DNA of 64,000 nucleotides from Pedobacter chitinilyticus. Its GTDB lineage: Bacteria > Bacteroidota > Bacteroidia > Sphingobacteriales > Sphingobacteriaceae. Positions within the stretch are counted from its first letter, which is position 1; each line of letters starts with the position of its first letter. A model generated the notes under the pieces. That model had not been told where the DNA came from. It worked only from the letters and a program-made list of their open reading frames with translations, and did not search any database. This document shows, in pieces, positions 78 to 59,572 of the stretch. The stretch lies in the NCBI RefSeq assembly GCF_003313385.1, contig NZ_QMHN01000003.1:62001-126000 (forward strand), given 5' to 3'. The position numbers and the translations under genes are program-made.

Positions 78-110
78 TTTGCAACATATTTGATGAACGT
101 CCTATATTTG
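78..110 (+). promoter_or_regulatory. Bacteroidota-type promoter for the tRNA-like genes
   Basis: TTTG at 78-81 and TATATTTG at 103-110 are separated by 21 bases, matching the Bacteroidota primary sigma consensus (TTTG, about 20 bases, TAnnTTTG). Transcription would start near 117, about 100 bases before the first tRNA-like gene, and could cover both copies. No protein gene lies between this promoter and the tRNA-like genes. That it drives them is inference. Confidence 0.6.
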
Positions 111-216: not shown

Positions 217-326
217 TGTAGGGTGGTGAAATTGGCAGACACACCTCCTTGTCTCGGTGGTAGAGAAATTGGGAAATCCGGTAACGGTACAACCACTCTA
301 TGAAGGTTCGACTCCTTCCCCTACAG
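217..326 (+). tRNA. tRNA-like gene, leucine-type body with GUC anticodon (copy 1)
   Basis: A complete cloverleaf can be drawn. The acceptor stem is 217-223 with 319-325 (7 bp, U1-A72). The D arm is 226-242 with GG at 234-235, closely resembling bacterial tRNA-Leu. The anticodon arm is 244-260 with U33 at 250, anticodon GTC at 251-253 and C38 at 255. The T arm is 302-318 with the canonical loop TTCGACT. G326 is the discriminator and CCA is not encoded (CAA follows). The variable arm (261-301) is far longer than in class II tRNAs: a 5-bp outer stem (261-265 with 296-300) and an inner CCG-GTAA-CGG hairpin at 278-287. Oddities are a T-T mismatch in the middle of the anticodon stem and T at position 37. 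It could be a decoding tRNA-Asp-like molecule, a regulatory tRNA mimic or a decayed gene; the second copy argues against decay. Confidence 0.65.
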
Positions 327-327
327 C

Positions 328-395
328 AATTTACAGTTCGAAGTAATCAATTCGCAGTTTTTAACTGCTCATTGAAAACCGAAAAACTGTAAACT
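328..395. repeat. R3 interspersed repeat, copy b
   Basis: Similar to 131-200: it starts with the same CAATTTACAGTT word and carries the same alternation of CAGTTTT and AACTG blocks, but has diverged in sequence. It fills the gap between the two tRNA-like genes. Confidence 0.5.
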
Positions 396-402
396 AACAG
401 AA

Positions 403-547
403 TGTTGGGTGGTGAAATTGGCAGACACACCTCCTTGTCTCGGTGGTGGGGATTATGGGATAAACGCAGTTTATGGGTTGACCACAAATTAATTTTTGAA
501 CTGTAGCTAACTACCCCTTGAAGGTTCGACTCCTTCCCCAACAGCCA
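403..547 (+). tRNA. tRNA-like gene, leucine-type body with GUC anticodon (copy 2)
   Basis: Same architecture as the copy at 217-326. The acceptor is 403-409 with 537-543, the anticodon GTC is at 437-439, the T arm is 520-536, the discriminator is G544, and here CCA is encoded at 545-547. The acceptor pair at position 4-69 is T-A instead of A-T, a compensatory change that keeps the stem. The variable arm (447-519) is longer still, with GGGG 448-451 facing CCCC 514-517 and an internal 6-bp hairpin at 460-474. The D, anticodon and T arms are identical to copy 1 while the variable arms differ, as expected if the tRNA fold is under selection. Function is unproven. Confidence 0.65.
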
Positions 548-568: not shown

Positions 569-1456
569 TTAAGGAAGCGGTTCTGGATTGAATCGCTTTT
601 TTTTATTTCCATTATTTTTCAAAGACCATACCTTGCCCATTTTATCTACAAACAACAGATAGGCAGCCGCCATGGTCAGGCCAAAATCTGGGAGCGATAA
701 AAATAAGGCTATAAAGATATGAAATATTAATCCGATAGGCACAAGCCATTTCCGCATTGTGCTAAACCAAATCAAAAATGGGAAGCCCAACTCAAAAAGC
801 ATGACCAGCCAAGAGGTGACTAAACACACTGTAGGGTTGGAAAACCACTGAGGTACCAAGTGCAAATTAGTATAGTATTCAAGCTCCCAAACTTTTTGCA
901 TAAACGACCCGTCCCACCAACTGCTTTTTAAAATTTTCCCATAACCATTTAAAAAGTACACGGCACAAATATTTATTTTCACCAGCAATACTGTGGCATT
1001 ATTGAGCATCCAGCTCACTTGTTGCTTCAATGCTTTTTCATTCACAAAAATCAATGAGAATATAAAAAAATTGAGCAGCTTATCGCCACTATTGGTTGCC
1101 AAATAAAACAGACTTAAATAATTGAGGCTGATGATAAAGATGAGTATAGATAGCCATCGTTTTGCGGAAAGTACCGTTGCCGCCGCCACCACTATACAGG
1201 CTAAACCCCACCAAAGTTGTACAAATGAACTAAAAATGGGTAAAAACATCAGTTTCGAAAAGCTAAACCCTACGATTGTACCTTGTGCATTTGTGACATG
1301 ATGATAAAACGTTTTTAGCTCTGGCCAAACCAATAGCATTTTCAAAAGCAGCAACAGGTAAACAGCCTTTCTAAACCAATAAAGATTGGCATTGCTATCC
1401 TTTTGGTTCATTAAACCAGTTTCGACGTCCGTTAAAAAACTTTGAACACGGCTCAT
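569..1456 (-). CDS. HTTM-like integral membrane protein
   Basis: A 295-aa protein with many hydrophobic helices. The C-terminal part has an SWWDG motif followed by helices with FELGFPFLIW and HIFIALFLSLPDFG. This pattern fits the HTTM (vitamin-K-dependent carboxylase-like membrane) family, which includes SdpB of the Bacillus sporulation-delaying system. Its start codon overlaps the stop of the upstream 171-aa gene (ATGA at 1453-1456), so the two are probably translationally coupled and work together in the membrane. The family assignment rests on pattern recognition and the substrate is unknown. Confidence 0.55.
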   Translation of the reverse strand: MSRVQSFLTDVETGLMNQKDSNANLYWFRKAVYLLLLLKMLLVWPELKTFYHHVTNAQGTIVGFSFSKLMFLPIFSSFVQLWWGLACIVVAAATVLSAKRWLSILIFIISLNYLSLFYLATNSGDKLLNFFIFSLIFVNEKALKQQVSWMLNNATVLLVKINICAVYFLNGYGKILKSSWWDGSFMQKVWELEYYTNLHLVPQWFSNPTVCLVTSWLVMLFELGFPFLIWFSTMRKWLVPIGLIFHIFIALFLSLPDFGLTMAAAYLLFVDKMGKVWSLKNNGNKKKRFNPEPLP

Positions 1457-59439: not shown

Positions 59440-59572
59440 TTTGTTATTTATTTACTTCCTACTCGTATAGCTTTTCGGATACGCTCCGTTTTTTTCAATG
59501 GTCTCTGGCCTCCATTATAATTCTACATCTATTATTTTCTGTATTAAGTAAATATTGCTATTGCGATAATTT

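Follow-up and report, generated by a model that had tools for sequence, protein, structure and literature searches.

Conserved tRNA-like RNAs of Bacteroidota as probable scaffolds for tRNA-dependent asparagine synthesis

Two tandem tRNA-like genes of Pedobacter chitinilyticus belong to a conserved RNA family and probably represent dedicated non-decoding tRNAs, which, as read from their sequences, would act as a scaffold for tRNA-dependent asparagine synthesis. Judged by its conserved nucleotides, the RNA is the anticodon of one tRNA joined to the amidation signal of another, with the decoding nucleotide U33 apparently drifting. The conserved fold, the determinant set for AspRS, the neighbouring gene and the gene-content correlations are directly established. 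Two clues that lay beyond the reach of the initial annotation of this DNA point to a use, namely an AsnC-type gene that leaves the window at its edge, and the U1-A72 pair, by which GatCAB recognizes its substrates. A broader reading is favoured with somewhat more reserve: the family may be a new RNA class for amino-acid biosynthesis, split from decoding, which unites AspRS determinants with the GatCAB pair and, behind an AsnC regulator, takes the place of asparagine synthetase in much of Bacteroidota, while the phage copies perhaps keep asparagine flowing during infection. Among the titles and abstract openings found by full-text searching, a scope that excludes subscription papers, no such RNA is described.

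The window, i.e. the whole stretch analysed, comprises 64,000 nucleotides of contig NZ_QMHN01000003.1 (positions 62,001–126,000). Copy 1 occupies positions 217–326 on the plus strand (110 nt) and consists of a 7-bp acceptor stem with U1-A72 and G2-C71, a Leu-like D arm, the anticodon loop UUGUCUC (anticodon GUC), a T arm and G73; its variable arm of 41 nt (261–301, plus strand) is built from a V stem, a conserved internal loop and a covarying apical hairpin. Copy 2 (403–544, plus strand, 142 nt) follows after 76 bases, with the acceptor strand UGUUGGG, an anticodon arm identical to that of copy 1 and a variable arm of 73 nt (447–519, plus strand), which contains the conserved GGGUUGACCAC element, also seen in long forms from other families and in viral contigs, together with the internal-loop strand GCUAACU. 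Both copies adopt the 7/5 class II fold (acceptor 7 bp, T arm 5 bp). The initial annotation had described two complete class II-like cloverleaves at this spacing, each pairing a Leu-type D arm with a GUC anticodon, as well as the lengths of the variable arms, a compensatory change at acceptor pair 4-69 (A-U versus U-A between the copies), a T-T mismatch in the anticodon stem and T at position 37, and this description stands in full. Upstream lies a promoter-like site (78–110, plus strand; TTTG at 78–81, TATATTTG at 103–110) that resembles the Bacteroidota-type consensus, and a terminator-like hairpin with a T run (574–604, plus strand) is located 3' of copy 2; in many relatives, read by eye, a terminator-like element likewise directly follows the RNA. 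Degenerate GCAGTTT-type repeats lie beside both copies (121–210 and 327–400).

ARAGORN called no tRNA within the window and so missed both copies, and neither was found by Rfam at gathering thresholds over the whole window, where the sole match is a DUF805 RNA (RF03081) at 59452–59520 on the minus strand. When the search was restricted to positions 150–620, the Rfam tRNA model matched copy 1 with 36.1 bits and did not match copy 2, and no family other than tRNA reached its gathering score for the pair in the window or for five member loci, two bacterial and three viral. The RNA family is covered in Rfam by the generic tRNA model only. Single-sequence folding was no better than that of shuffled sequences (z −0.38 and 0.04), so that the support for the fold is comparative.

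This comparative support is strong. In a sample of 59 genomes, 36 of them from the same genus including P. chitinilyticus itself, copy 1 is present in 35/36 same-genus genomes (E ≤ 9e-22) and the tandem pair in 34/36; the only one that lacks both copies is 84% complete (G006), while in G021 the two are fused to a single 170-nt gene (L069:1326-1495). The pair is also found in a genome of another family (G036), and BLAST revealed no further copy in the P. chitinilyticus genome. In a MAFFT alignment of 27 copy-1-type sequences 95.6% of the cells pair, versus 48–60% when the partners are slid. From these 27 sequences the covariance model R1 was built and searched against 301 genomes of the same family (f1) and 395 genomes of the class. 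All 301 match R1 at E 0.01; since tRNA-Leu-like genes also match the model (52–57 bits for three that were inspected), members were counted from 62 bits upwards, which gave 66/395 genomes of the class. For the wider family, represented by 83 distinct sequences, 98.4% of the cells pair, versus 54–62% after sliding, in an alignment that was fitted to the model and hence leans towards the structure, as the 27-sequence MAFFT alignment does not, and 19 of the 27 pairs are altered on both sides. The conservation of the fold is far beyond chance. The model search that the initial annotation had proposed returned covarying homologues, and their absence, which would have spoken for decayed tRNA copies, did not occur. 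Conservation figures are taken from the 83-sequence alignment, which was gathered by the covariance model and not by a fixed pattern, although R1 was built from GUC sequences, 6 of the 68 sources of the alignment had fed it and very divergent members would be missed; for loci fetched by pattern, the pattern itself contained GTCNCG, which biases the conservation of the anticodon among them, and the figures for these loci, drawn from the matches listed, are counts and not rates. Named members, among the matches listed, come from Pedobacter, Mucilaginibacter, Chitinophaga, Dyadobacter, Spirosoma, Algoriphagus, Cyclobacterium, Echinicola and Saprospiraceae. The variable arm ranges from 7 to 99 nt in the 83 sequences, with a median of 67.

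Decoding elongator tRNAs normally carry U33, which is needed for the U-turn of the anticodon, and a purine at position 37. In the family U33 is kept in 69/83 sequences and replaced by G or C in 13/83, and at position 37 a pyrimidine is found in 78/83 (73 U, 5 C) and a purine in 5/83 (4 G, 1 A). Another alignment has G, C or A in place of U33 in 24/122 sequences and U1-A72 in 122/122; the replacement of U33 is seen in viral members too. The U-U mismatch of the anticodon stem is present in 25/25 same-genus copy-1 sequences of the 27-sequence alignment, with C-G in the two sequences of G036. Conservation is by contrast nearly complete at the positions that matter for AspRS and GatCAB: U1-A72, G2-C71 and G73 are each found in 83/83 distinct sequences, U35 and C36 in 82/83, C38 in 81/83 and G34 in 77/83. 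The anticodon is CUC in G503 and G677, both of one family, and AUC in the 76-nt form of G377. Of the positions listed earlier as read by E. coli AspRS, G73, G2-C71, G34, U35, C36 and C38 are near-invariant, whereas G10 varies between A, G and U. G73, G34, U35, C36 and C38 are described as strong AspRS determinants (PMC9976931). The same source, in the part drawn on here, states that bacterial tRNA-Asp normally has G1-C72, which is said to help to place the 3' end in AspRS, that U1-A72 enables GatCAB to amidate Asp-tRNA, and that G1-C72 together with U20a prevents this reaction in tRNA-Asp; the requirement of GatCAB for U1-A72 is also given in PMC4206432. G1-C72 is absent from the family, which has U1-A72 instead throughout the 83 sequences. 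The D loop is of the Leu type (GGCAGA), and its numbering is ambiguous with respect to nucleotide 20a, the GatCAB antideterminant.

Members of the family also reside in tRNA arrays of viral contigs. Among the matches listed, 74 of 80 pattern-picked viral stretches have an R1 match of at least 50 bits. In 24 of the 80 stretches scanned with ARAGORN, an ordinary tRNA-Asp was called in seven and a tmRNA in four, and in six the only tRNA called was the member itself, named tRNA-Asp. Some phage members are accompanied by tmRNA and an almost full tRNA set, and others stand without a further tRNA in the fetched stretch. The ordinary tRNA-Asp in 7/24 stretches indicates that some phages keep the RNA besides tRNA-Asp and not as its replacement. 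Short viral forms of 90–104 nt are without the enlarged arm, and at least two of these have A1-U72 (L321, L278). Searches of annotated phages and of plasmids, with one member as query each, gave no match, and in 40 viral stretches the neighbours offered no functional lead, the commonest being a protein of about 735 aa that looks terminase-like by eye (17 stretches). The tmRNA genes in or near viral tRNA arrays include L315:1363-1749, L325:5143-5517, L273:1028-1383 and L295:1341-1732. Other viral elements share the acceptor/D-arm start AGTCAGGTGGCG and the T-arm end ACAGGTTCGAATCCTGTCCTGACTA around unrelated inserts, which replace the anticodon and variable arms (L286:6143-6262, L286:7683-7830, L264:4534-4678, L299:9980-10112 and L304:4907-5049); these are possibly tRNA-flanked small RNAs.

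The gene next to the pair is a regulator gene of 158 aa, whose start codon lies on the minus strand at positions 1–4 of the window and whose body extends outside it (G000:C4:61528-62004), so that it is transcribed divergently, away from the RNA, the two being separated by an intergenic region of 212 bp. Its best NCBIfam match is AsnC with 172 bits, below the cut-off of 227, followed by LrpA with 72 and Lrp with 47. An upstream flank of 700 bp or more was available for 114 loci (five more were too short), and 72 of these have a divergent homologue within 450 bp on that side of the RNA (tblastn, E ≤ 1e-10), comprising 41/65 loci of the covariance set and, among the matches listed, 31/49 of the pattern set; 42 are without the homologue. 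When the neighbours of 83 loci were grouped into BLAST clusters and read by eye, the AsnC-type gene was found in 55/83, and no other cluster reached more than 8 loci. Sixty chosen genomes were searched for the AsnC-type gene, which is present in 29/29 RNA-positive genomes. Other families contributed 14 RNA-negative genomes: a 1e-20 threshold gave no hit in 12 of them, G037 has the AsnC-type gene and G056 a weak homologue. Since 14 of the 17 RNA-negative genomes of f1 have kept it, the gene also occurs without the RNA. Upstream of the AsnC-type gene, several of the RNA-negative f1 genomes (L434, L428, L426, L432) have retained the conserved element AGGTTTATAATTGGTTAG together with a terminator; in other genera the AGGTTTATAATTGGTTAG element directly follows the RNA, and the trailer element differs from family to family. 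Apparent remnants of the RNA were seen by eye beside the AsnC-type gene, namely a 5' half in G070 (L421) and, in genus g29, acceptor/T-arm halves in two genomes of small size (L441, L445). E. coli AsnC is reported to activate asnA and to be damped by asparagine (PMC8707732).

The P. chitinilyticus genome has only three PF00152 proteins, among them AspRS and AsnRS, a count on which the idea of an extra AspRS paralogue was rejected. The single AspRS carries the motif RDLGG, as does the enzyme of Thermus thermophilus (1efw), while the motif reads RDLGS in E. coli (1c0a), RDKGF in the nearest solved enzyme (6wom) and RDHGG in the Asp/Asn ligases 4wj3, 4rmf and 5w25. We assume that the motif residue separates discriminating from non-discriminating enzymes, so that RDLGG would mark a discriminating-type AspRS. 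Should this assumption hold, tRNA-Asn would not be aspartylated and the RNA would be the only evident molecule that presents aspartate to GatCAB; by this reading of the motif, a separate scaffold would be needed for tRNA-dependent asparagine synthesis. GatB and AsnRS are present and AsnA was not found. The best of three TIGR01536 matches fails the model of the E. coli-type asparagine synthetase AsnB, NF006949 (296 versus a cut-off of 499 bits), the other two being too weak for listing. Forty-one other loci exceed the Rfam tRNA cut-off, among them the ordinary tRNA-Asp(GUC) with the loop CUGUCAC, a gene whose presence the initial annotation had left to be looked up. The tRNA-Asn of the genome has U1-A72.

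The presence of the RNA goes along with gene content in other genomes. Genomes were scored as RNA-positive with an R1 match of at least 62 bits, with the addition of G049 (168-nt match, 58.5 bits); two odd forms were counted, G377 (76 nt, AUC) and G476 (loop CGUUCUA). The samples were chosen by hand, 75 of the 301 f1 genomes to cover the genera and 80 genomes for AsnA and AsnB, and the presence of GatCAB was judged by GatB alone. In f1, GatB is found in 35/36 RNA-positive versus 11/39 RNA-negative genomes (p 1.2e-10, a descriptive value that ignores kinship, since related genomes are treated as separate and independence is overstated), and in 34/35 versus 7/34 when only genomes at least 90% complete are taken. 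Of the seven genomes tested from genus g44, four have the RNA together with GatB and three have neither, while G085 has the RNA and no GatB match. Outside f1, in a class sample of 315, GatB was found in 46/46 genomes with the RNA and in about 189/258 without it, the latter figure assuming no further f1 genome among 52 unlisted negatives. E. coli-type AsnB was recognized by a split match, i.e. a first match ending at model position 384–389 in a frame of 549–578 aa, a rule confirmed with NF006949 on four proteins, which pass with 908–930 bits against a cut-off of 499; in each of six RNA-positive genomes the top AsnB-like protein stays below this cut-off, at 233–325 bits. Among the matches listed for the 80 genomes, split-match AsnB occurs in 0/43 RNA-positive genomes, in 21/30 that lack both the RNA and GatB and in 0/7 that are RNA-negative and GatB-positive. 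AsnA was found in 1/43, 7/30 and 0/7 of these groups, respectively, and the sole RNA-positive genome with AsnA is G503, whose RNA has the anticodon CUC. Neither AsnA nor split-match AsnB is present in 8/30 and 7/7 of the two RNA-negative groups, so that the three routes (the RNA with GatCAB, AsnA and E. coli-type AsnB) do not explain every genome. RNA-positive genomes often encode long AsnB-like proteins that exceed the TIGR01536 cut-off and have a putative function; proteins of this longer kind can serve other purposes, and AsnB of Listeria is reported to amidate peptidoglycan (PMC8554201).

The proposed scaffold would operate in three steps. In the first, the single discriminating-type AspRS would read G34-U35-C36, C38 and G73 and attach aspartate to the RNA. 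In the second, U1-A72, by which the RNA differs from tRNA-Asp, would let GatCAB convert Asp-RNA to Asn-RNA with glutamine. In the third and least certain step, asparagine would be freed by hydrolysis or by another enzyme, and AsnRS would load it onto ordinary tRNA-Asn. The relaxed position 33, the pyrimidine at position 37 and the very large variable arm would bar Asn-RNA(GUC) from Asp codons, and the AsnC-type gene probably controls transcription of the RNA in response to asparagine, as E. coli AsnC does for asnA. The main weak points are the U1-A72 pair in an AspRS substrate, which may weaken aspartylation, the putative release step and the genomes with none of the three routes. Furthermore, given that tRNA-Asn has U1-A72, the tRNA-Asn route would suffice were AspRS non-discriminating, and GatCAB might serve tRNA-Gln.

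Three options had been left open by the initial annotation, i.e. mis-decoding, charging with aspartate for a non-translational use and regulatory tRNA mimicry, of which the second fits best, with AspRS determinants near-invariant while U33 and purine 37 are not kept. Mimicry survives as an unlikely though conceivable alternative: the RNA could bind AspRS or GatCAB, or act as a base-pairing sRNA via its loop, variable arm or 3' trailer, and tune Asp/Asn metabolism under AsnC, with no biosynthetic intermediate. The adjoining AsnC-type gene, the strong conservation of GGGUUGACCAC and GCUAAC in the variable arm and the element and terminator that stay upstream of the AsnC-type gene in RNA-negative f1 genomes are consistent with such a role; it does not, however, predict the exact combination of AspRS determinants with U1-A72, nor the lack of E. 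coli-type AsnB and, with one exception, of AsnA in RNA-positive genomes, and the variation of the trailer between families argues against it. It seems improbable that the RNA donates aspartate to some other non-translational reaction, such as a lipid, cell-wall or protein modification, and tracks GatCAB by chance, since this would account for the retained AspRS determinants and the lost decoding features but would require a separate explanation for the correlations with GatB and AsnB, and, the AsnC-type gene aside, every neighbour is confined to 8 loci or fewer. Equally little, or slightly less, speaks for a class II tRNA-Asp that decodes or mis-decodes, which is very improbable: GUC in 77/83 and U33 in 69/83 sequences would agree with it, as would the name tRNA-Asp(gtc) that ARAGORN gives to short viral members in 8/24 stretches, whereas the loss of U33 in both alignments and in viral members, the pyrimidine 37 and the ordinary tRNA-Asp of the genome disfavour it, and asparagine on a GUC tRNA would produce errors. 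Decayed tRNA copies or a selfish repeat, to which the tandem arrangement, the low-complexity flanks and the failure of ARAGORN in the window might point, can practically be dismissed, being already contradicted by genus-wide conservation, strong covariation and synteny kept across families.

If the scaffold reading is true, a tRNA has been wholly diverted from decoding into metabolism, the mutual replacement of GatCAB plus the RNA and E. coli-type AsnB would be explained, and genome-based predictions of auxotrophy would need correction; the phage copies suggest importance during infection. In 18 of 547 genera, with Bacteroidetes among the clades, AsnRS, GlnRS and GatCAB are reported to occur without an asparagine synthetase, and synthesis on tRNA-Asn was proposed (PMC4206432). 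A discriminating-type AspRS would block the route proposed there, and the RNA would be the missing piece.

Several known RNAs resemble the family in part. Allo-tRNAs, as described in the part of PMC7609411 used here, are likewise class II and combine SerRS-type identity with non-serine anticodons that include GUC, but their arms are 8/4 or 9/3 and their anticodons vary, in contrast to the 7/5 fold and conserved GUC of the present RNA. Serine charging as in allo-tRNAs was rejected, as it would not conserve GUC and C38. With bacterial tRNA-Leu, to which the inspected background matches of R1 are alike, the RNA shares the D arm and the overall class II body, while it differs in the anticodon, the acceptor, G73 (A73 in tRNA-Leu) and the far larger variable arm. 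With tRNA-Asp(GUC) it has G34, U35, C36 and C38, G73 and G2-C71 in common, the loop UUGUCUC standing against CUGUCAC in the tRNA-Asp of the same genome, yet it carries U1-A72 in place of G1-C72 and a class II variable arm, and U33 is not required. The staphylococcal cell-wall tRNA-Gly is a tRNA reserved for non-ribosomal use, a use that would be alike here, whereas the amino acid, the enzyme and the structure differ. The nearest parallel in chemistry is tRNA-dependent asparagine synthesis on tRNA-Asn by a non-discriminating AspRS and GatCAB, as reported for Deinococcus, Thermus, Bdellovibrio and S. aureus (PMC4206432, PMC6523644). Both would place aspartate on an RNA with U1-A72 for amidation by GatCAB, with AsnRS present in the genome; in those organisms, however, AspRS is relaxed and ordinary tRNA-Asn serves as the scaffold before it goes on to decode, whereas in the present case the scaffold would be an RNA of its own that bears the Asp anticodon, is apparently not built for decoding and would be paired with a discriminating-type AspRS.
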